DNA of 64,000 nt, taken from a bacterium. Its GTDB lineage: Bacteria > Oederibacteriota > CAKKQC01. Positions 15,814 to 50,238 of the stretch are shown here, in pieces. Location of the stretch: NCBI GenBank assembly GCA_919901855.1, contig CAKKQC010000027.1, forward strand, positions 1 through 64,000, read 5' to 3'. Both the position numbers and the translations under genes were made by a program. The notes beneath the pieces were generated by a model that had not been told where the DNA came from, did no database searches, and saw only the letters and a list, made by a program, of their open reading frames with translations. How positions within the stretch are numbered: position 1 is the stretch's first letter; the number at the start of each line of letters is the position of its first letter.

Positions 15814-17367
15814 TCAGCGCGCGAGCTGGTCCACGTACGCCTTGAGCGGGGGATTGTCCGGGTGGAGCCGGAGGGATTCGCGGTAGGAGACGAGAGCCGC
15901 GGACTTGTCCCCCTTGGCCAATTGGCAGTTGCCGACGAGCTGCCAGGCCTCCCAGTTGGTCCGGTCCGCGGTCAGGACCGCCGACCCCTTCCGCCACGCG
16001 CCGTCGATGTCGCCGGCCACGTACAGGGCGGTCGCGGACGCGACCGCAGACGAAGCCGAGGACGGCTTCGTCGCGGCGGTCGCCGCGGGCGGGGTCGCGG
16101 GCACGATCCTCGTAAGGAACGTCCTGAGTTCGGGGTTGTCGGGGTGGAGCTCGAGCGACTTCTTGAACGCGGCGACCGCCCCCTGCGTGTCCCCCTGCGC
16201 GTGGAGGGCGTTGCCCTTCATCTGCCAGGCTTCCCAGTAGAACGGGTTGAGCTTGATCGCGTCGGTGGCCTTGGAGACCGCGGTCGCCTGGTCGCCCGCC
16301 GCGAAGGCGGCGGAGGCGTCCCGGAGCGCCTGCGTCGCGTCGCGCTCGAGCTCGGCCGAGATCATGGTCTCGCCCGTGCGCTTGGGCCCGAGCGTGCTGA
16401 GCGCGATGACGTGCGCCTCCTCGAACTCGGCCTCCTGCCGCTCGACGGCGGAGGGGCCGAGCCCGTAGAGGAAGGCGAACCGGTGGCTGACCGCGAGGTC
16501 GCCGAACGGCTGGTAGGCGTAGTCGAGGCCGAACCGGCCGGCCCGCACCCCGGCGCCGACCCCAAAGCCCGTGAGCCCGCCGAGGGACTGGTCCTTGCCG
16601 CGGTGGCCGTAGCCCATCCGGAGGGCGATCGCCTTCACGGGCAGGAGCTCCGCGCCGAGCGAGACGCGCGGCGACTTGTCCGTCAGTCCGTACCCGCCCT
16701 CCGCCGCCACCCGGAGGCGCGGGGACATGAGCCAGGCGAGCCCGGCCCGCACGGACCCGGGCAGCGAGAATCCGGCCGACTTCGTCCCCAGGTGCAGGAC
16801 CGCCCACCCGGCGCGCAGGCCCGGGGCGACGGGCACAAGTCCGCCCGCCGAGACGCCGTAGAGCGCCCCGCCCCCCACGGCCTCGTCCACGCGCTCGATC
16901 GCGACGCCCGTGTAGCCCCCGAGGAACGGGGGGTTGGCGGCCGCGATCGAGAACGAGACCGCGAGATCCCGCGCTTCCCGCGTGCCCGTGATGACGCCGT
17001 CGGCGTCACGGAGCTCGTAGGAGCCGTAGGAGAACGAGGTCAGCGAGAGACCCAAAGTCTGCCGCGCCACCGGGATCGCGACGGCGCCGTAGACGAGCGA
17101 GAGGCCGTTCCCCGCGTTGTCGTACTGCACTTGTCCCTCCGCGTTCCGGCAGAAGCCGAGCCCCCCGGGATTCCACGAGATGGCGGAGGCGTCGTCGGCC
17201 ACGGCCGTGAACGCCTCCCCCATCCCGACCGGCCGCGCGGCCATGCCGCGGGCGAGGAAGGCCGCGCGCCGGAACCCGAACTCGGACGACACCAGGGGCA
17301 GGTTCTCGGCGCGCGCCTGCGCCGCGAGAGCCAGGCACGCGAGGAGGAGAAGTCCCGGTCCCCTCAT
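15814..17367 (-). CDS. PorV/PorQ-like (UPF0164) outer-membrane beta-barrel protein with C-terminal TPR repeats
   Basis: The ATG at 17367 overlaps the stop of the upstream gene (ATGA), and the protein starts with a signal peptide (MRGPGLLLLACLALAAQARA). Residues ~20-320 carry the PorV/UPF0164 signature: an N-terminal segment ARPVGMGEAFTAVADDASAI, then WNPGGLG, then alternating amphipathic beta-strands (e.g. LRVAAEGGYGLTDKSPRVSLGA). Residues ~360-517 contain TPR units ending in the same phrase, SLxLHPDNP, twice. Family members in Bacteroidota carry or bind secreted proteins at the outer membrane. The open frame extends 49 codons upstream, but the signal peptide and the overlap fix this start. 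Translational coupling to a huge secreted protein suggests a partner role in export or surface attachment, which is an inference. Confidence 0.8.
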   Translation of the reverse strand: MRGPGLLLLACLALAAQARAENLPLVSSEFGFRRAAFLARGMAARPVGMGEAFTAVADDASAISWNPGGLGFCRNAEGQVQYDNAGNGLSLVYGAVAIPVARQTLGLSLTSFSYGSYELRDADGVITGTREARDLAVSFSIAAANPPFLGGYTGVAIERVDEAVGGGALYGVSAGGLVPVAPGLRAGWAVLHLGTKSAGFSLPGSVRAGLAWLMSPRLRVAAEGGYGLTDKSPRVSLGAELLPVKAIALRMGYGHRGKDQSLGGLTGFGVGAGVRAGRFGLDYAYQPFGDLAVSHRFAFLYGLGPSAVERQEAEFEEAHVIALSTLGPKRTGETMISAELERDATQALRDASAAFAAGDQATAVSKATDAIKLNPFYWEAWQMKGNALHAQGDTQGAVAAFKKSLELHPDNPELRTFLTRIVPATPPAATAATKPSSASSAVASATALYVAGDIDGAWRKGSAVLTADRTNWEAWQLVGNCQLAKGDKSAALVSYRESLRLHPDNPPLKAYVDQLAR

Positions 17368-20300
17368 CGCTCCACCCGCAGCTTCGCGACCGGGAACGTC
17401 CGGACGACCCCGTTGAGATAAGTCACCGTCGCGCGGATGAGGTACATCCCGGGCGCCCAGTGCCGCAGGTCCTTGATCGTCACGTTGCCGTCGATCGACG
17501 GGATCAACCCCCACGTGCCGGTAAAGACCCGGTGCATGGAGGCGTCGTAGGCGTCGAGCACGATCAGCAGAGTATCACTCCCGAGCGCGAGATAGCACGT
17601 GACCTGGTCCCCCCGCGCGGGGTTCGGGTAAAGGGCGATCTCGCCCGAAGGCCGCGCGGTAACCGCGAGAGTGGCCGAGGCCGAGGTCCCGATCCCGGCC
17701 GTAGTCCACACGGTGCCGGAAAGACCGTCGTAGAACCCGGACAGGAGCCCGGTCAGCTTGACGGACCCGCCGTCTACCGAGGTCATCCGCCAGACCCACT
17801 CCTTCGATTCCCCGTTCGCGAGCGTCGCGCTGAGCTCCGCAGGACCCAGGTCCACGCGCACGAGCCGGGGATCCGACACGCTCAGCGCCGGCCGAACGTC
17901 CCAGACGGTGGCCGCACCCGTGTTCGTGACCGTGAGCCGGAACGTGAAGGGCGTCCCGTACCGCATCGCCGCCGGCGTCGCGCTCGCGCTGGCCACCAGG
18001 GTAGGCGCGGCCGCCACGAACACGGTGTTGGAAGTCACCCCCGTCATGCTGACGGTCCAGAAGGTGGGCTCCGTCCAGAAGACGGACGCGCCGAACGAGA
18101 CCGTCCCCGAAGCCAGGGCGGTCACCGTCCATGTGAACACCTTGGGCGGACAGCCGGTCGTGTCGACGACACAGTTGATCTGGGGACACGCCTCGACCAG
18201 GCTCCAGGAAGCCGGATTCGGGCCGCCCGCTTGCATGGCGAACGACGTGGACGAGATCCGCAGCGACGCCGTCGGCGTGACCGACCAGATCGGGATCGCG
18301 CCCGTGTTCGAGACGGTCATCGTGACGAGGATCGTGCCGCCCTGCGCGACGACGGGCGGACTCGCCGTCAGCCGGGCGGTTAGCTGGCCCACGGGCACGA
18401 GGCAGGCGAACCCGAAGACCGTCGCACTGAACCCGACCCCGTATCCACTGTCGGTGCCGTATGCGATCGTGGCCACCTCGATCCATCCCTCGCCGGACGT
18501 GCTGTACGTCCAGATGAACGCGGTCGCGGACTGGCCGTGGACCATCAACGGGCCCGGCGGTTCCGGCCCGCTCGCGAGCGCGAGGGCCGGGCTGCCCGTA
18601 AACGGCACCGTCACCGGCACCGGCCAGACGGAGACGGCATCCAACGGCATGTCCCCCGTGTTCGTGACCGTTACCCGGACCGTAACCATCTGCCCGGAGG
18701 CTACCACCATGGAAGTGATGGAAATATCCGAGCTCATCACGGCCGGCCGCGCGAGCATGCACGACCCGGAACCGCCCGCCGACGCCACGCCCCCCGCCCC
18801 ATCGTCCCCGGTCACGGTCGCGGTGAGCTGGAGGACGCCGTAGCCCGACACCGAGTACGTCCACGTCAGCACGGTGGAACTCCCCACCGGCAGATTGAGC
18901 ATCGCCACCGGCCCGGACTCGAGGATCAGCGCCCCGGGCGGAACGTAGACCACGCTCGGCACCAGGTTGCGGGCCTCCAGCGCTCCCGTGTTCGTGATCG
19001 TGAGCGTGACCGTTAGCCACTGCCCCACGAGAACTGTCGACGAGGGAGCGGGCATCGCGAGGGCGACGTCGAGCACGGCGATGGGCGCGACGAGGAGGGT
19101 CGCCGAACTCGACGCGGCCAGCGACCCGCCGAGCCCGGTGTCGATTCCGGTTACCGTCGCCGTCCACGTCACCAGCCCGTACCCGGTGACCGAGTAGGTC
19201 CAGATGAACGTACGCGTGGCGCCCGGCGCCATCGTGATGGTCCCGGACGGCGTCGGCCCGACGGAGAGCGTGACCGAGAGGGCGGCCGTGTTGAGCTCGA
19301 TCTCGGGGATGACCATCTCCGCGTCCGCGAGCCCGGTGTTCTTCACCCGGCACCGGACGTCCACGGCCTGGCCGGGGATGGCCTGGTTCGGCACCACCGT
19401 GAGGAGGGCCGTCAGGAACGCGGCCTCGAGCATCGCGTTGGCCGTCAGGCTCGAGGTCGCGGACGCCCCCTGGTCGTCGACCGGGATGATCCGGTACCGG
19501 TACCGGAGCCCGTTGGTCACGTTCGTGTCGGTGAAGGCGTTCGACGCCGCGCCGGTGACGTCCGCGTACCAGTTGTCGAGCGTGATCGCGACCGTCGAGG
19601 TCGTGGCCCGGTACACGCGGTACCCGGACACCGCCCGGGTCCCGGCGGACGCCTGCACCCAGGAGATGCTGATGGCCGCCCCGGCCGCGACCGCGGTAAG
19701 CCCCGCCGCGGGCCGGGGCGGGCTGAACGGGGCGAATCCGTACTTCGCGACCGCCGCGTCCATCTGGCCGTCGGGCATGCCCTCGCCCCCGGCCACGACC
19801 GCGTACCCCGTGCCCGAGATCGCCACCGCGTACAGGACGTCGGACCCCGACGCGAGGCCGTCATGGGTGAACGTGTCCAGGAGGTTCCCGGCGTTATCGA
19901 ACCGCACGACGAGCCAGTTCTCCCCCTGGCCCAGGTCCGCCCGGGTCTCGGAGCCCGCCACGATCACGTTGCCGCCCGCGTCCACGGCGACCCCGCGGGC
20001 GTAGTCGTTGCCGCCGGCGGGCGAGTCGTAGGTCCAGTCCCAGAGGAGGTGCAGACGGGGGTCGTACTTCCGCACGCGCCAGTTGGTCCCCTCGGCGGCC
20101 GTGTCCTCGTAGCCGGCGACGATGAAGTTGCCGACGGGATCGACCGCGACCACGGGCGCGTAGGCGGAGTAGCCCGGCGGGTTGTACGCGGTGGCGCCCA
20201 GGAGGGATCCCAGCGAGGCGTTGTACTCCCGGATGGACCACTTCACCGTCCCGGGGGACACGGTCTCCTGCCCCACCGCGAGGATGTTCCCGCCCGCGTC

Positions 20301-23300
20301 CACGGCCACGGACGTGGCGATGTCGTAGAGGCCCGCCGGACCCGCGTAGGTCGTGGATGCGACCAGGCTCGTGAGGCCGGCGTTGGACTTCGAGATGTCC
20401 CAGGCCGCCTTGGCGAGCAGGGCCGTCTCCCCGTACCCGGCTACGATCACCTCGCCCGCGGCGTTCGCCGCCACCGCCATCGCCTCGTCGACCCCGTTCG
20501 CGGGCCCGTTGAACGTCATGGAGCCCAGCACCGTCCCGACCGTCGAGTCGTACTTACGGACCCGCCAGTCCCACCAGGCGGCGGCGGTCTGTTCCGATCC
20601 GGCCACCAGGACCGATCCCGAATCCCCCAGGGCGATCCCGTAGGCGAAGTCCCAGCCCCCCGCCGGGCCGTCGTAGGTCGGGCTGTTGATCAGCCAGTTC
20701 AGGGCCGGGTTGTACTCCCAGATCCGCCAGTCGGACGACGGACCGGCCGTGGCTTCGGTGCCCGCGGCGTACACGGTGCCGCCGGCCGTCACCGTCACGG
20801 CCCTCGCCAGGTCCCCTCCCCCCGCCGCGCCGCCCCACAGGGCCAGGCCCAGCAGAGGCGACGCGATCCGCTGGCCCGTGGCGGTGACGGACGCCGGCAG
20901 GGCCGCGGGCACCGTGCCCGCGACGTCGCAGGACAATGTCGCGCTAGCGAAGACCTGGACGATCTGGGCAGGCCCGGTGAGGAGGTTGGTCGACCACGAG
21001 ATCGTCCCGTTCCGCCCCGGGTACACGGTCGGGATGACCCAGCGCAGGTACAGGGGATCGGGGGTGGCGTCCGGGGGCTGGAGCAGGGTCCAGGGACCGG
21101 CGAGGCTCGTGGCCCAGCTCGCGGTCTTCGTCATCCCGCCGGTCAGGATCACGCTCTGCGAGGCGCCCACGTACATGCGCTCCTGGAAGGAATCGGGGCC
21201 GGTCGTGATCGTCAGGTTGTACACCGTCGTCGAACCGGCCAGGCTGAAGCCCAGGGTCCATGTCTGGGTGTCGCCGCCGTTCGCGTAGAGCGGCGCCGGG
21301 GGCAGGGCTTTCAGGACCAGCCCGTCCGAGCACGGAACGATCTTCTGCAACGCGGCACTCGCGGCCGTGAGGACGGGAAGACCGGAACCCGTGTCGTCGC
21401 CCGAGGCGGTCGCCGTGAACGTCGCCGAGACGCCCCCCACCGCCGTGTAGTTCCACGTGAACGACTGGGACGCCCCGGCCATGATCGTCACGGGGCCCGC
21501 GGGCAACGGGCCCGAGACGGGCGTGAGATTCGCCGCCCCGGTGTTGATGTCGATCTCGGGGACCACGTTGATCACATCCGCGCTCCCGTTGTTCGTGACC
21601 GTCAACACCACCTGCACCGGGTCGCCCGGCGATGCGCTGTCCGGCGTAACCGCCAGAGATCCGTCGAACAGGACCTTCAGGACCAGGGCGCCGCCCGCCA
21701 CCGCTAGCACGGGCCTTCCGAGGCCGGTATCGTCGCCCGAGGCGGTCGCCGTGAACGTAGCCGAGACACCGCCCACCGCCGTGTAGTCCCACGTGAACGC
21801 CTGCGACGCCCCGGCCGCGATCGTCACGGGGCCCGCCGGAAGGGGACCCGACACAGGAGTGAGGTTCGCGGCCCCCGTGTTGATGTCGATGGAGGGTATG
21901 ACGTTGGTCGCGTCCGCGGTCCCGGCGTTCGTCACCGTCAGAACCACCTGCACCGGGTCGCCCGGCAACGCGCTGGCCGGCGTCACCGCCAGGGACGGGA
22001 TGAACTGGACGGACGGGCTAACGGTCATGACCGCCGAGCTCGCGGCCCCGATCGGGTTCCCCGTCCAGGAATCGGTCCCGGACGCGGTCGCCGTCAAAGC
22101 GATCGACCCGAGACCGGACGCGCTGAAAGTCCACGTGAAGGCGGCCTGCCCGCCGCCCGGGATCGACACCGGCCCCGCCGGCAAGGGCCCGCCCTGAAAC
22201 GCGATCGCGCCGGAGCCGCCATTGATCTCGACCGCGGGCAGCACGCCCGTGGCGGGCAGGCCGCCCGTGTTCGTGACGGTCAGCCGCGCCTCGATCCAGG
22301 TCCCTATTCCGGCGGGGTCGGGGACGAAACTCAACGACGTCTGGAGGGCCGCCGGGCTCTGACCGGTGAAGGCAGCAATGCCCGAGGCCCGAACCGTGAC
22401 CAGCGCGTCGGTGTCGGTCCCGGTCACGGTTGCCGTGAACGTCGTGATCCCCGCCCCCGAACCGCTCCATGTCCACACGAACGTAGTAGCGCCGAAGCCC
22501 TGGATCGTGAGCGGGGCCGCCGGCACCGGGCCCGCGATCAGCTCGGCGATGCCGGAATCCGGCGAGAGATCAGGCGTAACCGCCGTCAGGGAGGCCCCAC
22601 CGTCGTTCGTCACCGTAAGCGAGACCGTGAACCATTGCCCCATCACGGTCGCCGAAGGATCCACGTTGAGAGCGAGGCTGAGACCGAGGAACTTCCCCAC
22701 CTCGTTCACGTCGAACGCCGTGAAAGAGGTGAAATCCACGCCGCCTACCGCGAGGATCTTGTTGCTGACCACATCCGCGGCCAGATACTGCCTCGCGGTG
22801 AGCATGGGATCCATGAGATCCCAGGCATCGGCGACCGGATCGTAGGCCTCCACGGTGTCGACCGGGAAGAAGAACTCATCGAGGCCGCCCAGGACGAAGA
22901 TGCGGCCGTTCACCACGGCGGCCGAAGAACTGCCCCGCGGCGCCGGCATGACCGCCTTCGCGGACCACGCGTTGGTCAGGGGATCGTAGGATTCGACGGT
23001 GTCGACGATATTGGCGCCATCGTACCCGCCAATCGCAAAGATCCTGTTCCCGGTGACGGCGGCGGCGCGGATCTCGCGTGCTGTCGGCATGCCCGCCTTC
23101 GTCACCCAGGTGTTCGTGTCGGGGTCGTATGCCTCGACCGTTGGGTAGTACGCGCCGCTGGCAGCGTCGCGTCCACCGATAGCGTAGACCGTCCCGCCGA
23201 TGGCCACCGCCGCAAGATCGCACCTTGGGGTCGGCATGGGCGCCTTGGTCGCCCACGTGTCCGATCCGGGGTCGTACACTTCCAACGTGGCGAGTTCCGT

Positions 23301-23657
23301 GAACCCATCGTCCCCGCCCACGACGTAGATCTTCCCGCCGGCAACCGCGGCGGCCGCCGCCCACCTTGCGGTCGGCATCGGAGCCTTCGTCGCCCAGGTG
23401 TCGCCGACGGGATCGTAGGCCAGGACCGTGCCCACGTAGGCGAAGGCGGTCATGTCGTAGCCCCCGATCGCGAAGAGCTTACCGGTCGCGGAGCCGACCA
23501 CTTGCCCGAAGATCTGCGACGGCATGGGGGCTTTCGAATTCCATATGGGGACCGCATGGGCCAACCGGGCCGACACAGCCAGAGACATCAGCAATAAGGC
23601 TGCGGGGACTCTCCCCGCGTTGGCACGACTCACTCCCCCGTCCATCCTCGAAGTCAT
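17364..23657 (-). CDS. very large secreted kelch / CARDB / propeller / FN3 protein with YPNP (FlgD-like) C-terminal domain
   Basis: About 2097 residues. I place the start at the ATG at 23657, because an in-frame GTG at 23702 lies inside a hairpin. A signal peptide ends at ARLAHA. Six kelch repeats follow (e.g. FAIGGYDGANIVDTVESYDP), forming a propeller over residues ~35-330. Then come four CARDB-like sandwiches, a linker, a second propeller-like region of repeats such as GGNVIVAGSETRADLG, an FN3 domain and more CARDB-like modules. The last ~90 residues (IALYPNPARG to AKLRVER) match a FlgD-like/T9SS type A-like C-terminal domain. Its modules resemble those of the giant glycosidase, so the two are related surface proteins. 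No catalytic domain is visible; adhesion or scaffold function is likely. Confidence 0.8.
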   Translation of the reverse strand: MTSRMDGGVSRANAGRVPAALLLMSLAVSARLAHAVPIWNSKAPMPSQIFGQVVGSATGKLFAIGGYDMTAFAYVGTVLAYDPVGDTWATKAPMPTARWAAAAAVAGGKIYVVGGDDGFTELATLEVYDPGSDTWATKAPMPTPRCDLAAVAIGGTVYAIGGRDAASGAYYPTVEAYDPDTNTWVTKAGMPTAREIRAAAVTGNRIFAIGGYDGANIVDTVESYDPLTNAWSAKAVMPAPRGSSSAAVVNGRIFVLGGLDEFFFPVDTVEAYDPVADAWDLMDPMLTARQYLAADVVSNKILAVGGVDFTSFTAFDVNEVGKFLGLSLALNVDPSATVMGQWFTVSLTVTNDGGASLTAVTPDLSPDSGIAELIAGPVPAAPLTIQGFGATTFVWTWSGSGAGITTFTATVTGTDTDALVTVRASGIAAFTGQSPAALQTSLSFVPDPAGIGTWIEARLTVTNTGGLPATGVLPAVEINGGSGAIAFQGGPLPAGPVSIPGGGQAAFTWTFSASGLGSIALTATASGTDSWTGNPIGAASSAVMTVSPSVQFIPSLAVTPASALPGDPVQVVLTVTNAGTADATNVIPSIDINTGAANLTPVSGPLPAGPVTIAAGASQAFTWDYTAVGGVSATFTATASGDDTGLGRPVLAVAGGALVLKVLFDGSLAVTPDSASPGDPVQVVLTVTNNGSADVINVVPEIDINTGAANLTPVSGPLPAGPVTIMAGASQSFTWNYTAVGGVSATFTATASGDDTGSGLPVLTAASAALQKIVPCSDGLVLKALPPAPLYANGGDTQTWTLGFSLAGSTTVYNLTITTGPDSFQERMYVGASQSVILTGGMTKTASWATSLAGPWTLLQPPDATPDPLYLRWVIPTVYPGRNGTISWSTNLLTGPAQIVQVFASATLSCDVAGTVPAALPASVTATGQRIASPLLGLALWGGAAGGGDLARAVTVTAGGTVYAAGTEATAGPSSDWRIWEYNPALNWLINSPTYDGPAGGWDFAYGIALGDSGSVLVAGSEQTAAAWWDWRVRKYDSTVGTVLGSMTFNGPANGVDEAMAVAANAAGEVIVAGYGETALLAKAAWDISKSNAGLTSLVASTTYAGPAGLYDIATSVAVDAGGNILAVGQETVSPGTVKWSIREYNASLGSLLGATAYNPPGYSAYAPVVAVDPVGNFIVAGYEDTAAEGTNWRVRKYDPRLHLLWDWTYDSPAGGNDYARGVAVDAGGNVIVAGSETRADLGQGENWLVVRFDNAGNLLDTFTHDGLASGSDVLYAVAISGTGYAVVAGGEGMPDGQMDAAVAKYGFAPFSPPRPAAGLTAVAAGAAISISWVQASAGTRAVSGYRVYRATTSTVAITLDNWYADVTGAASNAFTDTNVTNGLRYRYRIIPVDDQGASATSSLTANAMLEAAFLTALLTVVPNQAIPGQAVDVRCRVKNTGLADAEMVIPEIELNTAALSVTLSVGPTPSGTITMAPGATRTFIWTYSVTGYGLVTWTATVTGIDTGLGGSLAASSSATLLVAPIAVLDVALAMPAPSSTVLVGQWLTVTLTITNTGALEARNLVPSVVYVPPGALILESGPVAMLNLPVGSSTVLTWTYSVSGYGVLQLTATVTGDDGAGGVASAGGSGSCMLARPAVMSSDISITSMVVASGQMVTVRVTVTNTGDMPLDAVSVWPVPVTVPFTGSPALALASGPEPPGPLMVHGQSATAFIWTYSTSGEGWIEVATIAYGTDSGYGVGFSATVFGFACLVPVGQLTARLTASPPVVAQGGTILVTMTVSNTGAIPIWSVTPTASLRISSTSFAMQAGGPNPASWSLVEACPQINCVVDTTGCPPKVFTWTVTALASGTVSFGASVFWTEPTFWTVSMTGVTSNTVFVAAAPTLVASASATPAAMRYGTPFTFRLTVTNTGAATVWDVRPALSVSDPRLVRVDLGPAELSATLANGESKEWVWRMTSVDGGSVKLTGLLSGFYDGLSGTVWTTAGIGTSASATLAVTARPSGEIALYPNPARGDQVTCYLALGSDTLLIVLDAYDASMHRVFTGTWGLIPSIDGNVTIKDLRHWAPGMYLIRATVTYLNGVVRTFPVAKLRVER

Positions 23658-23674
23658 TGTAAGGGAATCGTCAC

Positions 23675-23707
23675 GGCGGGTGCAGTGGTCCGACGAGCGC
23701 ACCCGCC
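23675..23707. terminator. inverted repeat between lipB and the kelch protein gene
   Basis: A 9-bp perfect inverted repeat (GGCGGGTGC/GCACCCGCC, 15-base loop) sits 35 bases after the lipB stop codon. It separates two minus-strand units and lacks a clear T-tract. It covers the GTG at 23702, which argues against that GTG as a start. Confidence 0.4.
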
Positions 23708-23741: not shown

Positions 23742-24431
23742 TCAGTCGGGCAGGACCGCGTACCCGAAGACGCGGGCGAGGTGGTCCGCCACCTCGAAGG
23801 CCACGGCGGCGGGGTCCTCGGACTTGCCCGTCACCGACGCGAGCGAGGCCGCCCGGCCGTCCGGAATCCCGCAGGGCACGATCCACGAGAACGGCTCGAG
23901 GTCGTTCGAGAGGTTGACCGAGAACCCGTGCATGGTGATGTTGCGCTTGACCGAGATCCCCACCGAACCGATCTTGGCGTCGCCCACCCAGACGCCGCGG
24001 TTGACGGGGTCCCGCCGGGCGTCGACGCCGCGGGTCTTCAGGAACCGGATCAGGGTCTCCTCGAGGTTGAACACGAACCGGTGGATGTCCCGGCCCTGGT
24101 GCCAGAGGTCCGCGACCAGGTACCCGACGAGCTGGCCGGGGTTGTGGACCGTCGCCTGGCCGCCGCGCTCGACCCGGTGGATCGAGGCGCCGCGGGCGAG
24201 GATCTCCTCGCGCGGCCGGCGCAGGTGCCCGGCGTCGTACCGGCGTCCGAACGTGATCACGAGCGGATGTTCCATGAGGAGGAGGGTATCGCCGGCCGCG
24301 CCGTCCTTCCGCTTCTGCACGAACTCGTGCTGGAGGTCGAGGCCGTCGCCGTACGGCACGAGCCCCCGCCATTCCACCGAGAGGGCGCGGGCGGCGTCGG
24401 ACTCCGCCGCGTCCTGCCGGCGCCTGCTCAC
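23742..24431 (-). CDS. lipB: lipoyl(octanoyl) transferase LipB
   Basis: This 229-residue enzyme moves octanoyl groups from acyl-ACP to lipoyl domains of 2-oxoacid dehydrogenases. Visible LipB motifs are RGGQATVHNPGQLVGY (usual form RGGQxTxHGPGQ), the lysine K153 in GDAKIGSVGI, and the catalytic cysteine C187 in VPCGIPDG. The start is a GTG at 24431 whose GTGA overlaps the stop of the upstream SDR. It lies last in an operon that encodes an E2 lipoyl protein, so it probably lipoylates that E2. LipA is not in the window. The HNPGQ in place of HGPGQ is a mild departure from consensus. Confidence 0.93.
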   Translation of the reverse strand: MSRRRQDAAESDAARALSVEWRGLVPYGDGLDLQHEFVQKRKDGAAGDTLLLMEHPLVITFGRRYDAGHLRRPREEILARGASIHRVERGGQATVHNPGQLVGYLVADLWHQGRDIHRFVFNLEETLIRFLKTRGVDARRDPVNRGVWVGDAKIGSVGISVKRNITMHGFSVNLSNDLEPFSWIVPCGIPDGRAASLASVTGKSEDPAAVAFEVADHLARVFGYAVLPD

Positions 24432-25273
24432 CGGAGCATCACCTGCCCGCCCGTCACGGGCACCGCCTGCCCCGTCTCGTAGGGCTGGCCGACCACGTAC
24501 AGGATCGCGCGGACGACGTCCGCCCCCGTGCACCCGCGGCCCATGGGGATCTTCGACTCGTAGAAGCGCCGGACGTCCCCGACCGTCCGCGCGCCGGGCA
24601 CCTTGCCCTCCTTGAGATATTGGACGAAGAGCCCTCGCTTGGGGTCCGACCAGAGCGGGCCCTCGAAGTAGTTCCCGGGGCAGATGGCGTTGACCTTGAT
24701 GCCGTCCGCGAGCAGCTCGAGCGCGAAGCTCTGGGTCAGCCCGATCCCGCCGAACTTGGCGCCCGCGTAGGCGGCGTTCCGGTTCGACCCCTCGAGCCCG
24801 GACTTCGAGTTGATCTGGATGATGTCGCCCGTCCAGCCGGGGTTCGCCCGCCGCCGCAGCGTCATCGCCCGGGCCGCGTGCTTCACGCAGAGGAAGTAGC
24901 CGGTGTAGTTGACCTCGGTCACGAACCGGAAGGTCGCGGCCTCCATGGTCTTTACGCTGCCCGCCCGCAGGACGCCGGCGTTGCTCACGAGAAGGTCGAG
25001 GCCGCCGGCCCGCCCGACGACGGTATCCATCAGCCGGGCGACCGAGGGTTCCTTCGTCACATCGACGCGGATCGGTATCGCGGCCTTGCGGCCGCACGCA
25101 CGACCTATCGCCGCGGCGGTGGCGCGGGCGCCCGGCAGGTTCAGGTCCGCGACGAAGACGGTCGCGCCCGCTTCCGCGAGTCCGCGCGCGATCTCGCTCC
25201 CGAATCCCTGCGCCGCGCCCGTGACGACGGCCACCCGCCCCTCCACCGGTCCCCTGCCCCGCCGCGTCCTCAT
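24428..25273 (-). CDS. short-chain dehydrogenase, sorbitol-6-phosphate 2-dehydrogenase (SrlD)-like
   Basis: 281 residues. Rossmann fold with TGAAQGFGSEIA (NAD-binding), SNAG, catalytic serine in INSKSG and YxxxK in YAGAK. Beyond the general SDR pattern it shares SrlD-specific features: GYFLC, IIQINSKSG, AKFGGIGLTQS, the KIPMGRGC stretch and the VTGGQVM C-terminus. This makes a sugar- or polyol-phosphate substrate likely, for example oxidising sorbitol-6-phosphate to fructose-6-phosphate. The ATG at 25273 overlaps the stop of the PHP gene (ATGA) and has a strong GGAGGTG ribosome site. In the operon it lies between a PHP phosphoesterase and lipB. The true substrate is unknown. Confidence 0.85.
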   Translation of the reverse strand: MRTRRGRGPVEGRVAVVTGAAQGFGSEIARGLAEAGATVFVADLNLPGARATAAAIGRACGRKAAIPIRVDVTKEPSVARLMDTVVGRAGGLDLLVSNAGVLRAGSVKTMEAATFRFVTEVNYTGYFLCVKHAARAMTLRRRANPGWTGDIIQINSKSGLEGSNRNAAYAGAKFGGIGLTQSFALELLADGIKVNAICPGNYFEGPLWSDPKRGLFVQYLKEGKVPGARTVGDVRRFYESKIPMGRGCTGADVVRAILYVVGQPYETGQAVPVTGGQVMLR

Positions 25274-26601
25274 CCGAGCACCTCCTTCATGATCCCGATC
25301 GCCCGCTCCGGATGGCGCGGGTCGATCCGCTTCCCAATCCTCGCATACGCCGCAAGCCGGGCGCCCAGGGGGCGTCGATACATCGGATTGCGGGGCGAAA
25401 ACAGCGCGTACCGCTCGTTGCGACTCGCGAGGAGCTCGTGGGCCACGAGCGCCCACGTCGTGTCCACGAGGTGCCGGAACGCGGGATCGAGCAGGATCGG
25501 GCAGTTGAACGACTGCCGGGAGCTGTTTATGTCCACCCCGCTGATCTCGATCAGCCCTTGGCCGCGCGCGAGCCGGCTCACCCGGCGAAGCTGGGCCCGC
25601 GTGTTGCGCGGCGGCATGTACGCGAGGCCCCGGAACCCGATTCGCTTGAGCTCGGGGACGAGGCGGTCGAGGTACGAGTCCTCGAACGCCTCCGCCTTCT
25701 TGTCCCCGGTCGGAGAATCCGCGACGTCCCCGAGGTAGGGGTAGACCGGGAGGGACTGCATGGCGTTGGCCGTCTTCACGGCGTCGTACACCGACGGGCA
25801 CTCGGTCTCGTCGGGGTCGATCGCGAACCGGTCGAGGACCGAACTCTTGAGCACGCCCAGCAGGTCGTAGTCGTAGTGCGGGTTCGCCGGATCCAGCAGG
25901 TACGCGCGCAGCCGCCGCGGCGGTTCCACCCCGAGGTTGGCCCCAAGCAACCGGACCAGCCTTGCACCCCGTCCCGCTTTCCGGATCAGGGCCCGCGCCA
26001 GCGCGAGCAGGAGGTGGCGCTCCGTGACCGACCCGCCTTCGCGCGCCTGCGAGAGGGCCTCGACCTCCCGGTACGAGACCCGCCCGATCCGGTGCCGGGC
26101 CATCATGGCGTCCAGCGCGGTGACCATCCAGCGGTTCCGCCGGTTCCGAGCCTCGCGGAAGGGCTTCAGGAACCGCTCCGCCTCCGCCAGCCGCCCGTGC
26201 GGGATCCCGTGGAACGACATGTAGGAAATGTTCCGCGCGTCGGGATGGTTGGTCTTCCGCCCCTCGACCGCGGTGCCGGTCATGTTCACGCGCATCTCGA
26301 AACCGACCGTGCACGCGATCCCCAGGCGACGGCAGGCCTCGATCATCTCGCCGGCCCCCGCCACCGAATCGTGGTCCATGATCCCAACCACCCGGAGGCC
26401 CGCCCGCCGCGCGAGCCAGGCCGCCGCGGTCGGGAAGTACGGACTGAACGAATACCGAGTGTGGACGTGGTTGTTCGTCTCCTCGGTGCCGGGCGCGGTT
26501 TCGCGCCCATCCGCGATCAGCTTGCCCACCCGGCGGACTGCGGCGAGACGGCCCGCGCGGGACGCCCCGTTCAGGGCGGCGAACAGGGGATCAAAGCCCA
26601 C
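25270..26601 (-). CDS. PHP-domain metal-dependent phosphoesterase
   Basis: 443 residues with a GTG start at 26601, overlapping the stop of the E1 gene by 11 bases. Metal-binding PHP motifs are visible: HVH at 45-47 in [16 protein letters not shown] at 76-78 in [14 protein letters not shown], and a glutamate in TVGFEMRV. This fits the PHP family of two- or three-metal hydrolases acting on phosphate esters. The protein is longer than minimal PHP phosphatases, with an unassigned middle region (~150-300). In this operon it may dephosphorylate or hydrolyse a sugar-phosphate intermediate handled by the SrlD-like enzyme. That link rests on position only. Confidence 0.8.
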
Positions 26602-29041
26602 GGCGGCTCCGCCGGCGCATCTCGGCCGGTGTGCGGTTCGTCGTCACCCGGTGGCCGGGCAGGGGCAGGAGGAGCTCGTGGATCGCGTCCAGAATCCACT
26701 CCTTCTGCGGCGTGAAGAGCGATTCCATCTCGGCGCACGGCGCGATCCAGTTCCGGGCGCCCACGACGACGGGCGGCCCGTCGAGGTCGTCGAACGCGAG
26801 CTGGGTCAGTTTCGCCGCGACGTCGTTGATGAACGATCCCCGCTCGCACGCGTCGGCGACGAGCACGACCCGGCCCGTCTTCCGCAGCGACGCCAGGAGG
26901 GGATCGTAGTCGAGGGGGTTGAGGAATCTAAGGTCGATGACCTCGGCCGTCAGGCCCCACCGGGCCTCGAGCTCGGTCGCCGCCTCCAGCCCCGTGTAGA
27001 GCGCCGGGCCGAGCGTGATGATCGTGAGGTCCCGGCCGGCCCTACGCACGGCGGGTTGGCCTTCGGGCACCTCGTACGGCCCCTCGGGCACGCCGCCCGC
27101 CGCGAACAGCTCGCCAATGTCGTAGACCTTCTGGCTCTCGAAGACGACGACGGGGTCGGTCCCCCGGAGCGCGAGCGCGAGCATCCCCTTGGCGTCATAC
27201 GGCGTCACCGGGTACATGGCCTTGAGCCCGGGCATGTGCGCCACGATCGAGGTCCAGTCCTGGGAGTGCTGGGCCCCGTACTTGGACCCCACCGAGATCC
27301 GGATCACGAGCGGCATGCGGAGGAGCCCGGCGGACATCGCCTGCCACTTGGCCACCTGGTTGAACAGCTCGTCGCCCGCCCGTCCCATGAAGTCGCAGTA
27401 CATGAGCTCGACGACCGCGCGGCCGCCGCAGAGCGCGTAGCCGACGCCCGATCCCACGATCGCGCCCTCCGAGATCGGGGCGTTGAACAGCCGCGGGTAC
27501 GGCAGGGCCTCGGTGAGCCCGCGGTAGACGGCGAACGCGCCGCCCCAGTCCCGGTTCTCCTCGCCCCACGCCGCCATCGTCGGGTCCTCGTAGAACCGGT
27601 CGAGTAGGGCCTCGAAGAGTCCGTCGCGGAGCGTGTAGACCTTGCTCCGCGGGAGGGGCTTGCCGGCCGCGTCCAGCCCGAACCGGGCCTTCCCCGCCAG
27701 CGCCTTCAGCCGCGGGTTGTCCGCTTTCGGGATGAGCACGGCGGGCACGCCGTCGGCCATCCGGTCCGCGCGGCCGTTCGAGTACATGACCGAGTCGATG
27801 AACGCCGCGTCCACTCGTGGTGAGGACACCACGCGCTCGAGCGCGCGCAGCACCCGGGCCGCCGCCGTTTCCCGCAGGGCCGACAACTCCGCCTCGGTCG
27901 CGATCCCGGCCCCCACGAGGTGCGCGCAGTACCCGGCGATGCAGTCGGCCTGCTCCCAGCGCTCGACCTCCTCCTTCGTCCGGTACGACGACGCGTCCGA
28001 CGGCGAGTGGCCCGAGAGCCGGTATGTGACGCAGTCGAGGAGGACCGGCCCCCGGCCCTCGAGCAGGATGGGCTTCTTGCGCTCGATGGCGTCCGCGACC
28101 GCGAGCGGGTTGTAGCCGTCGATGCGCTCGGCGTGGCATTGGTCGGGATTCACGCCGGCGCCGACGCGCGCGAGCTGGCCGAATCCCATCGTCTCCCCCG
28201 CCGTCTGGCCTCCCATGCCGTAAAAGTTGTTAAAGAAGTTGAACAGGATCGGGGGCGCGCCGCCCGCGTCCCCGGGCCAGAGCGTCCGGTACTGGTCCAT
28301 GGCCGCGAGCTGGATGCCCTCCCAGACCGGCCCGCAACCCATCGACGCGTCGCCGATGTTCCCGATCACGATGCCCGGCCGCCGGTTGATGCGCTTGAAG
28401 AGCGCGGCGCCGACGCTGATGTCGCCCGACCCGCCGACGATGGCGTTGTTCGGCATGCTCCCGAACGGGGCGAAGAACGCGTGCATGGAGCCACCGAGAC
28501 CGCGGTTGAACCCCGTGGCGCGGCCCAGGATCTCGGCGAGCAGGCCGTAGACGACAAAGTCGGCAGCGAGGTCGCGGACGCCGGCCCGGTGGCCCGATTC
28601 GACTACCCGCAGGATCGCGCCGTCGAGGTACCTCCGCATGATCCCGTCGAGCGCGGGCTCGTCGAGCTGGTGGACCGCCGACAGGCACTTGGCCAGCACC
28701 TCGCCGTGGCTCCGGTGCGACCCGAACACCAGGTCCTCCACGCCGAGCGCGGCGGCCTGGCCGACGGACGCAGCCTCCTGCCCCGCCGACAGGTGGGCGG
28801 GGCCGCCGTGCGCGCATGAGATGCCGCGCCACGCCCCCGTGGTCTTCAGGCCGCTGAGCATGGTCTCGAACTCGCGGATGACCATCATGTCCGCGGCGAT
28901 GGTGAGGAGCCGGGGCTTCCCCCACCTCTCCACCTCGCGGACGGGATCGGACCGGTACGCGTTCACGGGGATGTCCGCGAACCGGATCGCACCCGGCTTC
29001 CGGACGTCGTCCGGATCGATCATGATCGACTTGGGACTCAT
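26591..29041 (-). CDS. 2-oxoacid dehydrogenase E1 component, fused alpha and beta subunits
   Basis: 816 residues. Residues ~30-400 are an E1-alpha domain: [25 protein letters not shown], and a thiamine-diphosphate motif running from [12 protein letters not shown] to FNFFNNFYG. Residues ~455-790 are an E1-beta transketolase-like pyrimidine-binding and C-terminal domain ([49 protein letters not shown]). The usual two genes are fused in one chain. The ATG at 29041 overlaps the E3 stop (ATGA) and follows GGGAGGAAACGC. It decarboxylates a 2-oxoacid and acylates the E2 lipoyl group. Pyruvate, branched-chain or acetoin-type substrates cannot be told apart here. The neighbouring sugar enzymes leave a sugar-derived 2-oxoacid open. 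Confidence 0.9.
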
Positions 29042-30423
29042 GCGTTTCCTCCCGCCGCGCCGGCTGCGGACGCAGCCGCAATCGCATCGCGGATCCCCTC
29101 GGACACCGTCGGGTGTGGGAAGACGATCTCGCGGACGTCCTTCGCCCGCAGTTCCATCTCCAGCAGGGCCGCGACGCCCCAAATCATCTCCGCGCACCCG
29201 TCGCCGAGGAGGTGCACGCCGAGCACCCGGCCGTCGTCCTTCGCCACCACGGCCTTGACCACCCCGGGAGCGTCGCCGTGCTCGGCCAGGAACCGCCCGA
29301 TCGACCGCATGGGCACCATCGCGGTCCGGACCGGGATTCCCTGCCGCTTCGCCTCGTCCTCGGTCAACCCGCACCCTGCCGCCTCCGGGACCCCGAACAG
29401 GGCCCACGGGATCGCCTGTACGCGGAACCGCTCGCCGGCGCCGTGGCGGGACGCCTCGCCGCCGTGCACGATGGCGTCGGCCGCGACCTCGCCCATGCGC
29501 GCGGCCGAGTGGGCGAACAGCGAGACCCCGTTCACGTCCCCGACCGCCCAGACGTGCGGCAGGTTCGTCCGGCCGTGCGCGTCCACGCGGATTCCCGCCC
29601 TACCGGTCTCGACCCCGAGCCGTTCGAGGCCCAGCCCCTCGACGTTCGGCGCCCGGCCGGTGCAGACGAGGACGAGGTCGGACGCCACGGTCTCCCGAAC
29701 CCCGTCGCGCGAGCACACGACCCCGCCGGGCTCGATCGCCTCGACTCTTGAGCCGAGGTGGAAGGTCACCTGCTTCATCGCGCGGCGCATGGCGGACGCC
29801 AGCGACCCGTCCATGAAGGGCGCGATCTCGGGGAGCATCTCGACGACGTGAACCTCGACGCCGACCGCGGAGAAGAACGAGGCCGCCTCGAGCCCCACCG
29901 CGCCGGCCCCGACGATCGCGACCCGCTTCGGCAGGTCCCCCAGCTCGAGCATCTCGCGGCTCCAGATCACGTTCGGACCGTCCACCCCGGGGACCGGCAG
30001 GGGCGCGAACCGGGATCCGGTCGCGATCACGATGTCGTCCGCCTCCAGCATCCGGTCCCCGACGCGGACGGCGCGGTCCGACACGAACGAGGCTTCGCCG
30101 GCGACGACCTCGACCCCGAGCCTCGCCATGAGGGCGGCCAGCGAGCCCTTCAGCCGGCCCACGACCTCGCGCTTCCAGCTCCTGGCCACTCCGAGATCGA
30201 ACCGGGCGCCCTCGACCGTGACCCCGAACTTCGCGGACTCGCGCGCGTGGGCGTACAGCTTGGCGGAGTTGAGGAGGCACTTCGACGGGATGCAGCCCTC
30301 GTTCAGGCAGACGCCGCCGAACTCGCCGCGCTCGACGATCGTGACCGTCTTGCCCAGCGCCCGGAGCCGGCCGGCGGCCGTGTAGCCGCCCGGGCCGCCG
30401 CCTACGATGACGACGTCAGCCAT
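29038..30423 (-). CDS. lpdA: dihydrolipoamide dehydrogenase (E3)
   Basis: 461 residues. FAD-binding [13 protein letters not shown] at the N-terminus, redox disulfide C39/C44 in [16 protein letters not shown]-binding [16 protein letters not shown]-contact WAVGDVNG, and the C-terminal HPTVSE with the catalytic histidine of the partner subunit. It reoxidises the dihydrolipoyl arm of E2. I chose the ATG at 30423 because it follows GGGAGG and begins the Rossmann strand [13 protein letters not shown]; upstream codons are only the overlap with E2. It overlaps E2 by 8 bases. Confidence 0.95.
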
Positions 30424-31720
30424 GCGAGCCTCCCGCGTCGACCCGCGCGACGGCTTCGCCGATCGCTTCCAGGAAGACCGCGGCGTCATGGCCGTCGAGC
30501 GCCTGGTGGTCGAACGTGAGCGAGAGCCCGAGGTGCGGGACGAGCCGGAGCCCGCCGCGCCCCTCGACCGGGCGCACGACGATGGTGCCGACCCCGAGGA
30601 TCGCGACCTCGGGCGGGTTCAGGAGCGGCGTGAAGAACTCGATCCCCTGGGGACCGAGGTTCGTCATCGTGAACGTGGCCCCGGTCAGCTCCTGCGGCGT
30701 CGCCGTCCCGTCCAGGCAGGCCTGCCGCACGCGTTTGGCCTCCGCCGAGAGCTCGATCAACGAGAGCGCGTCGGCGCGCCGGACCACGGGAGCCATGAGG
30801 CCCCGCGGCGTCTGGACCGCGACCCCGAGGTGCACGTGCTCGAACTGGAGGATCCGTTCGCCGAGGAAGAAAGCGTTGAGCGCCGGGAACTTCGGCAGGA
30901 CCCGCATCGTCGCGTGCATGACGAGGTCGTTGATCGTGATCCCGTAGGTCGCAGCCTCGGTCTTGAGCCTCGCCCGCGCCGTCCGGAGCGCGGAGGCGTC
31001 CGCGGTCGCGTGCAGGGTCACCTGGGCCGTCGTCCGCGCCGAATGCAGGAGCCGCGAGGCGATCGCCTTCCGGACCCCCTTGACCGCGATCTCCTTCGAG
31101 GGGCCGAGGAGTTTGAGGTCGGGGACGGGGAACGTGCCGCCCGCCTCCGGGATGTCGGCTCCGAGGACCCGCCCCCCTATGCCGGTTCCCACGCGCGGCG
31201 CCGCGAGTAGATCCCTGGCGGCCGGCGTCAACGGTTCGCGTCCCGACAGTTCGTCGCGGACATCCCGTTCGATCACCCGGCCGCCCGGCCCGGAACCAGC
31301 GACTACGGAGGGGTCCACCCCCGCCGTCTCTGCCGCATGCCGCGCCCGGGGGGAAACACCGGTTCCCCCTACGCTCTCCGAGAGGGGAAACTCCAGGGAT
31401 CCATCGCGCACCTTCAGGACCTGTATCTTCGGCGCGGATTCCGGCTTCGCCGCTTCCGGCGCGAATCCACTCACATCTTCACCGGGCTGGCCGATGACCG
31501 CAATCGTCGCCCGGACGGGAACATCGTCCCCTTCCTTGAAGAACACCTTGAGCAGGACCCCGGCGGCGGGCGACTCCACCTCGAAGGTCGCCTTGTCCGT
31601 CTCGATCTCGCAGACGGGCTCGCCCTTCGCCACCGTGTCCCCGGCCTGCTTGCGCCACGCCACGATCACGCACGACTCGATCTCGTTGCCGAGTTTCGGC
31701 ATCACGACCTCAACGGCCAT
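30416..31720 (-). CDS. dihydrolipoamide acyltransferase (E2) of a 2-oxoacid dehydrogenase
   Basis: 434 residues. One N-terminal lipoyl domain (lipoyl lysine K43 in ETDKATFEVES), then a peripheral-subunit-binding domain at ~123-155 (VSPRARHAAETAG, GSGPGGRVIERDV). A partial second copy of that domain lies at ~164-190 (LTPAARDLLAA, GGRVLGADI). The CoA-acyltransferase core has catalytic H405 and D409 in DHQALDG, where the family usually has DHRxxDG. Strong AGGAGGAG ribosome site. First enzyme gene of the operon, just after the DeoR-family regulator. The duplicated subunit-binding remnant is unusual. Confidence 0.92.
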   Translation of the reverse strand: MAVEVVMPKLGNEIESCVIVAWRKQAGDTVAKGEPVCEIETDKATFEVESPAAGVLLKVFFKEGDDVPVRATIAVIGQPGEDVSGFAPEAAKPESAPKIQVLKVRDGSLEFPLSESVGGTGVSPRARHAAETAGVDPSVVAGSGPGGRVIERDVRDELSGREPLTPAARDLLAAPRVGTGIGGRVLGADIPEAGGTFPVPDLKLLGPSKEIAVKGVRKAIASRLLHSARTTAQVTLHATADASALRTARARLKTEAATYGITINDLVMHATMRVLPKFPALNAFFLGERILQFEHVHLGVAVQTPRGLMAPVVRRADALSLIELSAEAKRVRQACLDGTATPQELTGATFTMTNLGPQGIEFFTPLLNPPEVAILGVGTIVVRPVEGRGGLRLVPHLGLSLTFDHQALDGHDAAVFLEAIGEAVARVDAGGSHG

Positions 31721-31732
31721 GGCTCCTCCTCT

Positions 31733-32521
31733 TCATACCAGGCATACCTGGATCCTCGCCTTCTCGAGCACCCGGACCGCGTCGCGCCCGAGGCCGCGGT
31801 CGCTGATCACGGTATGGATCTTCGCCAGCGGCAGGACGTGCACGAACCCCCGCCGGCCCCACTTGGACGAATCCGCAACCAGCACCGTGCGCTCCGACTG
31901 CGACGCCATCTTCCGCACGATCTCGGCGCCCTCGACGAGGTGGGTCGTCAGGCCCCCCTCCGGCGAGAACCCGTCGGTTCCGACGAACGCGAGCCGGACG
32001 TGGAACCGGTCGAGCTCCGAGAGCGCGATCGACCCGACGAAGGACTCGGTCGCGGGCCGGAACTCGCCGCCCACGACGGTCAGGTGCAGGGCAGGGCTCA
32101 CGCGCGCGTGCGGGAGGACGAGCGCCGAGTTCGTGACCACGCGGACGTCCCGGATACCAAGGAGATACCGTGCCACAAGCGCCGTGGTCGTGCCCGCCTC
32201 GATCATGATCGTGTCGCCGTCGTGCACGAGCTTCGCCGCCGCCTGCGCGATGGCCTGCTTCTGCTCGAGGTTGTGCCGCTGGCGGAGCAGGATGCCGGGG
32301 TGGAACGCGGGCATCGCGCCGCCCCGCGCGCGGATGATCTGGCCCTTGGCCGCAAGCCCGTTGAGCACCTTGCGCGTCGAGACCGTCGAGACGCCGAGCG
32401 CCTTGGCGAGCTTCGTGACCGTGATCGCCGGGTCGGCGAGCAGGAGGTCCATGACCCGCCGCTCGGAATGCCCCCCCGCCGCCGGATCAGCCGGAATGCG
32501 CCCTTTCGTTTCCCTTTCCAT
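31733..32521 (-). CDS. DeoR-family transcriptional regulator
   Basis: About 262 residues. N-terminal winged helix (ITVTKLAKALGVSTVSTRKVLN, RARGGAMP) and a C-terminal DeoR sensor domain of the isomerase-like fold: IEAGTTTALVARYL, VVGGEFRP, VGTDGFSPEGGLTTH, VADSSKWGRRGF. DeoR regulators usually bind phosphorylated sugars and control sugar-catabolic operons. It is 12 bases upstream of the E2 gene on the same strand, so it probably controls the whole operon and responds to a sugar phosphate. The start is the ATG at 32521; an in-frame TTG at 32533 would add four residues. Confidence 0.9.
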   Translation of the reverse strand: MERETKGRIPADPAAGGHSERRVMDLLLADPAITVTKLAKALGVSTVSTRKVLNGLAAKGQIIRARGGAMPAFHPGILLRQRHNLEQKQAIAQAAAKLVHDGDTIMIEAGTTTALVARYLLGIRDVRVVTNSALVLPHARVSPALHLTVVGGEFRPATESFVGSIALSELDRFHVRLAFVGTDGFSPEGGLTTHLVEGAEIVRKMASQSERTVLVADSSKWGRRGFVHVLPLAKIHTVISDRGLGRDAVRVLEKARIQVCLV

Positions 32522-33412: not shown

Positions 33413-33512
33413 CCCTTCGACTCGGTCGCTTCGCTCCCTCGCTCAGGGCTCCTTCGCCTCGCCCCCTAACGGGGCCCTGAGCGAGCACCCGCTTCGGGGG
33501 CGAGTCGAAGGG
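33413..33512. repeat. nested palindromic element abutting tRNA-Gln
   Basis: Outer arms 33413-33424 (CCCTTCGACTCG) and 33501-33512 (CGAGTCGAAGGG) enclose inner arms 33440-33448 (CGCTCAGGG) and 33475-33483 (CCCTGAGCG). The element ends exactly at the tRNA 3' end. It resembles bacterial REP-like intergenic palindromes and could also end transcription of the tRNA. Confidence 0.6.
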
Positions 33513-33584
33513 CTGCGGGGCTAGGATTCGAACCTAGAGTGACCTGGTTCAGAGCCAGGCATGTTACCGTTACATCACCCCGCA
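33513..33584 (-). tRNA. tRNA-Gln (anticodon CTG)
   Basis: Cloverleaf on the minus strand: acceptor TGCGGGG/CCCCGCA, anticodon stem CCTGG/CCAGG with loop CTCTGAA (anticodon CTG), T-arm AGGTTCGAATCCT. CCA is not encoded. It lies 9 bases past the upstream GT-C gene, so it may be co-transcribed. Confidence 0.93.
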
Positions 33585-33593
33585 ATGATTCAG

Positions 33594-49330: not shown

Positions 49331-50166
49331 ACTTGGACGCGTTCCAAGGTGTTCTGGCGACTGTGTCCGAAATGCTCGCTCAGTGCTTCACTTTCAGTGT
49401 AACATCCCGTCGTCGATGCGGACCTCGGGGCCTTTTGTCCCCACTTTTGTCCCCACCGATTCAGACCCCGCTCCCGAGAAACTTGTTCATGGCCGCGACT
49501 CCCTTCCGTCTGGCCTCTGCTCATTGACCTCAAAGCGGGCCTTGCCATCGACCGTGGGCCGCCTAAGCATCGTGCGAATGGTAAAGGACTGAGCATTGAA
49601 GTACCCGCGAATGAGATACGCACGTTCACTCGCAAGCGCAACTTCCTCTTTCGCGTCCATTGCAGTGCATCACCGAACCTTTCTAGGGGTCTGTCGCCTA
49701 TCTCGAATCCAGCATATTCCAACCGTCGTGAAGTCAGCTACCGCCTGCAACTAGCACATGTTGCCCTTGCTAGGTCGTGCATGCCTTGTGCCATCACCAA
49801 AGGCGTAGACCGTACGGACTTCCCTTGAATGGCCCCTACGATGCCCCTGCTTCGCACAGGCGAGCCCTACGACGGGCGGGGAATATCCGAACGACTATCC
49901 CCCTTCGCCTGAGCTTGACTATCCGATCACACAGAAGCCGTGGAGATCCTTGGAGCGATTCGCTCTTCATGACCGAACGCGGTTTCTGTCCCCACTCTTG
50001 TCCCCACTTTTGTCCCCACAACCACCCATTGGCACCCGTCGGCTGGTCACAGCCGAACTATCGGTCGGTGATTCGAAGTCGAACACCCCCGAGGACGAGG
50101 AAAGCCTGTGCGAGATATTCTTCTCGCACAGGCCGTTGGCATCCTCACGCGGTTAGGAGCATTTCG
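49331..50166 (-). mobile_element. 836-bp eroded insert between tRNA-Glu direct repeats, with two integrase-tail-like remnants
   Basis: No intact gene. The minus strand has two related short frames, one with WGQKWGQKAPRS (near 49430) and one with WGQEWGQKPRS (near 49990). Both are encoded by tandem copies of an 11-base unit, GTGGGGACAAA. Tandem short repeats like these occur at the extreme C-terminus of some tRNA-targeting tyrosine recombinases. I see no RHRY catalytic residues, so this is at best a scar. Nothing else is recognisable. Confidence 0.45.
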
Positions 50167-50238
50167 TGTCCCCAGCGGGAGTCGAACCCGCATTACCACC
50201 TTGAAAGGGTGATGACCTGACCGTTAGTCGATGGGGAC
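50167..50238 (-). tRNA. tRNA-Glu (anticodon TTC)
   Basis: Cloverleaf on the minus strand: acceptor GTCCCCA pairing with TGGGGAC, anticodon loop CTTTCAA (TTC), T-arm GCGGGTTCGACTCCCGC. Discriminator A; CCA not encoded. Its 3' 42 bases are duplicated at 49289-49330. Confidence 0.93.

Follow-up and report, generated by a model that had tools for sequence, protein, structure and literature searches.

An operon with a fused-E1 lipoamide complex in an Oederibacteriota genome as a candidate core of 6-deoxyhexose catabolism

We analysed a stretch of 64,000 nucleotides (hereafter the window; positions 1 to 64,000 of contig CAKKQC010000027.1, assembly GCA_919901855.1) from a bacterium of the Oederibacteriota, and within it an operon of seven genes encoding a DeoR-family regulator, the E2, E3 and fused E1 components of a lipoamide complex, a PHP-fold metal enzyme, a short-chain dehydrogenase (SDR) and LipB. 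The gene set is best read as serving deoxyhexose catabolism by way of an unusual lipoamide complex, undescribed as far as the literature could be searched. We put at about even (roughly 0.5) the probability that the operon forms the core of a 6-deoxyhexose catabolic module in which the SDR oxidises carbon 5 and the lipoamide complex yields acetyl-coenzyme A (acetyl-CoA).

Organisation of the operon

The operon occupies positions 23742-32521 of the minus strand and is uninterrupted. From its first gene onwards it comprises:

31733-32521, minus strand: DeoR-family regulator, the operon's first gene (Pfam DeoRC 171 bits, HTH_DeoR 26 bits)
30416-31720, minus strand: E2 acyltransferase with lipoyl, E3-binding and catalytic domains (Pfam Biotin_lipoyl, E3_binding, 2-oxoacid_dh, the last at 217 bits)
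29038-30423, minus strand: E3 dihydrolipoyl dehydrogenase (Pyr_redox_2 217 bits, Pyr_redox_dim; TIGR01350 403.7 bits, cut-off 408.8)
26591-29041, minus strand: E1 with alpha and beta parts fused, 816 amino acids (Pfam E1_dh 134 bits, Transket_pyr, Transketolase_C)
25270-26601, minus strand: PHP-fold metal enzyme, 443 amino acids, GTG start (PF02811 27.9 bits, cut-off 26.4)
24428-25273, minus strand: SDR, SrlD-like (adh_short 160 bits; NF009050 237.4 bits, cut-off 307)
23742-24431, minus strand: LipB lipoyl(octanoyl) transferase, GTG start (TIGR00214 132 bits, cut-off 83.55; LplA-B_cat 133 bits)

The regulator and E2 genes are separated by 12 bases and the junctions that follow overlap by 8, 4, 11, 4 and 4 bases in order, in exact agreement with a preliminary description of this DNA, which had reported a seven-gene operon with a 12-base gap and overlaps of 4-11 bases. 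The family names given there (DeoR, E2, E3, fused E1, PHP, SDR and LipB) likewise held, all seven exceeding the Pfam gathering score, in the case of the PHP domain by a narrow margin. Read by eye, the E3 translation contains the CxxxxC redox motif. The window's genome contains no LipB/LplA-family match besides this LipB (PF21948 search), so that the dedicated lipoylation that had been proposed for the operon is not supported.

An AlphaFold2 model of the PHP protein (predicted local distance difference test score, pLDDT, 94.5) has 3e0f, 2yb1 and RNase AM as its nearest solved folds. The metal-type residues H45, H47, D76, H77, E102, H196 and D357 are kept in all 30 rows compared and N359 in 29 of the 30. 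This asparagine stands where the common motif presumably has a histidine, so that a simple phosphatase role is not assured.

Conservation of the gene set

Three surveys, entered from the PHP, SDR and E1 genes respectively, agreed on a conserved gene association. Among 384 diverse genomes, relatives of the PHP protein (E ≤ 1e-20) were present in 19, and in nine of these an SDR of the operon kind adjoins the PHP gene. Scanning of genome contigs for the SDR gave 578 confirmed relatives, of which the best 80 were considered; their contigs often end near the SDR. Within these best 80 loci the SDR is accompanied by PHP in 58, by a sorbitol-dehydrogenase-like gene (MDR2) in 57, by the fused E1 in 36, by E2 in 32, by E3 in 27 and by DeoR in 22. 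SDR, PHP and E1 occur together in Spirochaetota (11 loci), Actinomycetota (8), Bacteroidota (7), Bacillota (3), Chloroflexota (2) and, with one locus each, Atribacterota, Armatimonadota and Planctomycetota, making at least eight phyla in all. Carriers of the gene set include cultured Schaalia, Arachnia and Tessaracoccus.

The third survey covered 392 genomes of the phylum to which genome G347 belongs (E ≤ 1e-110), 42 of which matched the fused E1, 35 with an identity of at least 56%; longer flanks were viewed for 33 of these 35 loci (32 together with L073; G659 and G759 were left out). PHP is present in 26 of the 33, in one of them (L305) at the contig end, and a DeoR relative in 27 of 32. The order often matches that of the window, DeoR-E2-E3-E1-PHP-SDR, with a kinase and MDR2 following; in one locus (L274) LipB comes after MDR2. 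It had been proposed in the preliminary description to look for the fused E1 beside SrlD-like and PHP genes in other phyla, and both PHP and SDR stand beside it in 25 of the 33 loci of this other phylum. Because the same gene order recurs across phyla while the PHP family occurs in so small a share of diverse genomes, the adjacency goes far beyond what chance would give. The neighbouring genes in Lentisphaeria, when examined, gave no functional hint.

The sugar of the pathway

Loci related to the operon contain RhaA (601 bits, cut-off 572), FucI (1077 bits, cut-off 775) and rhamnulokinase (528.4 bits, cut-off 527.95), so that curated isomerases and kinases of L-rhamnose or L-fucose catabolism are linked to the SDR, PHP and E1 genes. 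RhaA or FucI was found in 18 of the best 80 SDR loci and a rhamnulokinase-like or FGGY kinase in 19. A single 10-kb contig (L128) carries RhaA, RhaE, RhaB, SDR, PHP, MDR2, E2, E3 and E1, and in G347 the rhamnose-binding protein RhaS is encoded downstream (452 bits, cut-off 342). The window's own genome has a RhaA (621 bits, cut-off 572), a RhaB-like kinase (485 bits, below the cut-off of 528) adjoining a RhaE-like gene, and MDR2; its stronger class II aldolase match is AraD. From the RhaA, FucI, rhamnulokinase and RhaE-type aldolase of related loci the pathway sugar is most likely L-rhamnose, joined in other bacteria by L-fucose, both 6-deoxyhexoses, and not a hexitol. Of the route from a sugar or polyol to acyl-CoA put forward earlier, a linked sugar-catabolic route ending in acyl-CoA is supported, but the isomerase and kinase context moves the likely substrate from a hexitol to rhamnose or fucose.

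Relationships of the SDR and MDR2

The SDR has sorbitol-6-phosphate dehydrogenase (NF009050) as its best NCBIfam model. In an SDR tree, built by a quick method and containing several long branches, it falls within a well-supported set with SrlD, its nearest SDR family, and the canonical RhaW domains lie outside. The earlier label "SrlD-like" is thus apt as a statement of similarity, but a true SrlD was rejected, as the score lies below the model cut-off, the neighbours differ and the operon content is without a glucitol phosphotransferase system (PTS). The window SDR differs further in an insertion that it has in common with G347 and that is absent from three other operon-linked SDRs. A true RhaW was rejected too on account of the tree: the window SDR is a separate gene outside the RhaW lineage and does not belong to canonical RhaEW.

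MDR2 belongs to the gene set. It matches sorbitol dehydrogenase and NADP(H)-dependent ketose reductase, and its alignment keeps the residues that we take to be zinc ligands from the positions in sorbitol dehydrogenase. Separately, contig C22 of the window's own genome holds (L240, 3558-12338) an SDR, an FBA-like aldolase, an isomerase-like open reading frame (ORF), an FGGY kinase, MDR2 (58%) and another MDR, a second MDR cluster that may belong to another pathway.

The fused E1 forms a clade of its own

With its E1_dh domain and its transketolase pyrimidine and C-terminal domains the fused E1 is a member of the E1 superfamily, and its GD(x)nNN thiamine motif aligns with the GD...NN of human pyruvate dehydrogenase (PDH) E1 alpha. 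A maximum-likelihood tree of 90 E1-beta rows, built with care, places it in a 39-row clade that has 100/100 support and whose stem measures 1.89 changes per column. This clade takes in the SDR-linked E1s together with four E1s from plasmids of rhizobia and Pleomorphomonas; the pyruvate dehydrogenase reference (L182), the branched-chain dehydrogenase reference (L183) and the two acetoin dehydrogenase references (L180 and L187) all fall outside it. An E1 grouping tightly with known pyruvate or branched-chain enzymes, named in the preliminary description as grounds for giving up its proposal, was accordingly not what the tree gave. Its other such ground, absence of the PHP and SDR genes from homologous operons, did not hold either, given the 25 of 33 loci that have both. 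The same SDR, PHP and MDR genes also accompany an E1 lineage distinct from this clade (G050, G003 and kin), an indication that the linkage has at least two origins.

The complex resembles the E1 alpha/beta type of PDH complex in its three components, lipoyl E2, E3 and LipB, but its E1 lies outside the PDH reference lineage and scores below every PDH model cut-off (TIGR03182 164.7 bits versus 393.85). The AcoABC acetoin dehydrogenase system has an E1 alpha/beta of the same superfamily and carries out an acyl-CoA-forming cleavage of the kind that we propose for the operon. The window E1 however is not an acetoin dehydrogenase E1 by its position in the tree, its E2 has an ordinary 2-oxoacid_dh catalytic domain and not AcoC-type domains, and its neighbours are sugar genes. 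In the rhizobial and Pleomorphomonas plasmid relatives (L094-L097) a fused E1 of the clade occurs together with a free lipoyl domain, and an AcoC-like alpha/beta-hydrolase replaces the ordinary E2; sugar importers, sugar kinases and SorC-type regulators lie nearby.

A proposed pathway from deoxyhexose to acetyl-CoA

Gene content and context indicate that an isomerase (RhaA or FucI) and a kinase first give a 6-deoxyulose-1-phosphate, and that LipB supplies the lipoylation. The SDR may then oxidise the CH3-CHOH- carbon (C5) to CH3-CO-, before or after an aldolase cut, and the thiamine diphosphate E1 would attack the resulting methyl ketone and cleave the next bond, much as acetoin dehydrogenase acts on acetoin. 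The acetyl group would pass from E1 to the lipoyl-E2 and on to CoA, giving acetyl-CoA. In favour of such chemistry, PMC3424233 cites the formation of 1-deoxyketoses by PDH and acetoin dehydrogenase working in reverse. PHP and MDR may act on neighbouring intermediates, and DeoR, judging from its family, would sense a sugar phosphate of the pathway. An alpha-hydroxy ketone is, we infer, at least as likely a substrate of the E1 as a 2-oxoacid.

L-Rhamnulose and L-fuculose, like their 1-phosphates, are carbon-4 epimers. Since they differ at C4 alone, enzymes acting at C5 and the adjoining bond could serve both sugars, and a cut between C4 and C5 would erase the difference between them. One genome (G260; L069, 10882-11778) has an LsrF-type autoinducer-2 (AI-2) thiolase (503 bits, cut-off 297) following a RhaB-MDR-SDR-PHP-aldolase operon that lacks the E1. 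LsrF there stands where other genomes have E1, E2 and E3, which fits an acyl-CoA-forming cleavage in this one genome, although its route is without thiamine or lipoyl chemistry. LsrF as a general stand-in for the complex was dropped, given this single occurrence and an own-genome match to the LsrF model of 91 bits, below cut-off.

The proposal can be taken a step further, to a form that we regard as speculative and rather doubtful: E1, E2 and E3 would together be a CoA-dependent oxidative sugar lyase that runs in reverse of 1-deoxyketose synthesis and bypasses L-lactaldehyde. The SDR would make a methyl-ketone sugar phosphate from rhamnulose-1-phosphate or fuculose-1-phosphate, the MDR would perhaps shift the carbonyl, and the products would be acetyl-CoA and a phosphorylated aldehyde. 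A bypass of the aldolase as a firm claim was withdrawn, because class II aldolase matches occur in 17 of 17 genomes tested, RhaE-like genes stand beside RhaA and RhaB, and RhaE-SDR fusions occur.

Several observations weigh against the proposed 6-deoxyhexose module. Of the 33 SDR loci that span at least 18 kb, seven contain neither PHP nor MDR2 nor E1, and PHP is absent from seven of the 33 E1-first loci, six of them on stretches of 9-20 kb and one on a 5-kb contig. None of the own-genome genes for isomerase, kinase, aldolase and MDR2 is on the contig of the window. PHP and MDR2 have no explained role, and the RhaE-type aldolase in the set permits the classical cut to dihydroxyacetone phosphate (DHAP) and L-lactaldehyde. 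Finally, one member of the E1 clade (60% identity; L295, 867-11852) is found without PHP beside deoC, a xylulokinase-like kinase, an iron alcohol dehydrogenase and a xylose-type importer, a context which extends the clade beyond deoxyhexoses.

Alternative explanations

The main rival is a pathway through lactaldehyde, in which RhaE cuts to DHAP and L-lactaldehyde, the SDR and MDR take the latter to lactate and pyruvate, with the complex acting as the PDH for that pyruvate; we consider it unlikely but a serious contender. It draws on the SDR being, in 37 of the 80 relatives, the C-terminal part of a fusion with an N-terminal RhaE-type class II aldolase, and on L-lactaldehyde being common to rhamnose and fucose. 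In a survey of bacterial rhamnose pathways (PMC3870299) the RhaEW of Bacillus and Chloroflexus are aldolase plus lactaldehyde dehydrogenase, and the RhaEW pathway described there (RhaI/RhaA, RhaB and a bifunctional aldolase/SDR) shares with our loci an isomerase, a kinase, a RhaE-type class II aldolase and SDR that are often fused, and a DeoR regulator. One canonical RhaEW cluster, in Deinococcus deserti, contains LutABC, which speaks for this rival; the operon type differs in having PHP, MDR and the lipoamide complex instead. Against this rival the SDR groups with SrlD and has 28-37% identity to canonical RhaW, no lactate dehydrogenase was found among the annotated genes of window-type loci (annotation being partial), the E1 lies outside the PDH reference, and PHP and MDR are left unexplained.

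That a hexitol or other polyol phosphate gives a sugar-derived 2-oxoacid which the complex decarboxylates is improbable. The nearness of the SDR to SrlD and of MDR2 to sorbitol dehydrogenase speaks for it; the isomerases and kinases of the loci however are of the rhamnose/fucose type, on which ground a hexitol pathway was dropped, and neither a hexitol PTS nor a sugar-acid dehydratase was seen among the annotated neighbours (again with partial annotation). Very improbable is an ordinary PDH of the organism with unrelated neighbours, since, even though the E1 is the sole own-genome match at E ≤ 1e-40 and LipB likewise has no second copy, so that a general complex is possible, the E1 keeps to its own clade below all PDH model cut-offs and the DeoR, PHP, SDR, MDR2 and kinase neighbours are kept across phyla; the reading as a PDH operon was dropped on the E1 tree.

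Relation to known pathways

In plant walls, algae and gut mucus, rhamnose and fucose rank among the major sugars. The usual teaching has two routes for breaking them down, one by an aldolase to lactaldehyde and the other a non-phosphorylated acid route. A literature search, with subscription journals mostly outside its reach, found no description of this gene set, in keeping with the earlier statement that no described pathway with it was known. The main text of PMC3870299, as far as it was available, does not contain the terms "PHP", "pyruvate dehydrogenase", "acetyl-CoA" or "dihydrolipoamide". The loci described here represent a third rhamnose/fucose gene set, found in at least eight phyla among the best 80 SDR loci, that adds a lipoamide complex. 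Should the E1 cleave a deoxysugar phosphate to acetyl-CoA, this would put thiamine and lipoyl chemistry to a new use in the breakdown of sugars and offer a tool to convert deoxysugars without lactaldehyde. Many genomes would then also see annotations such as "pyruvate dehydrogenase", "sorbitol-6-phosphate dehydrogenase" or "PHP phosphatase" corrected. If the complex were in addition a sugar lyase as outlined above, the rhizobial and xylose-type contexts of the E1 clade would represent further 1-deoxysugar routes.

Neighbouring and additional features

In one related locus (L168, 7140-10556) a single reading frame of 1139 residues joins PHP, a RhaE-type aldolase and SDR. Upstream of the operon in the window, on the same strand, lies a tRNA-Gln (ctg) at 33510-33585, and between the two is a fragment that we take to be GIY-YIG endonuclease-like. 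A tRNA-Glu is located at 50166-50238. Directly downstream of the operon an ORF of 2112 amino acids (17364-23702) contains, as judged by eye, kelch-like and repeated extracellular-type stretches.

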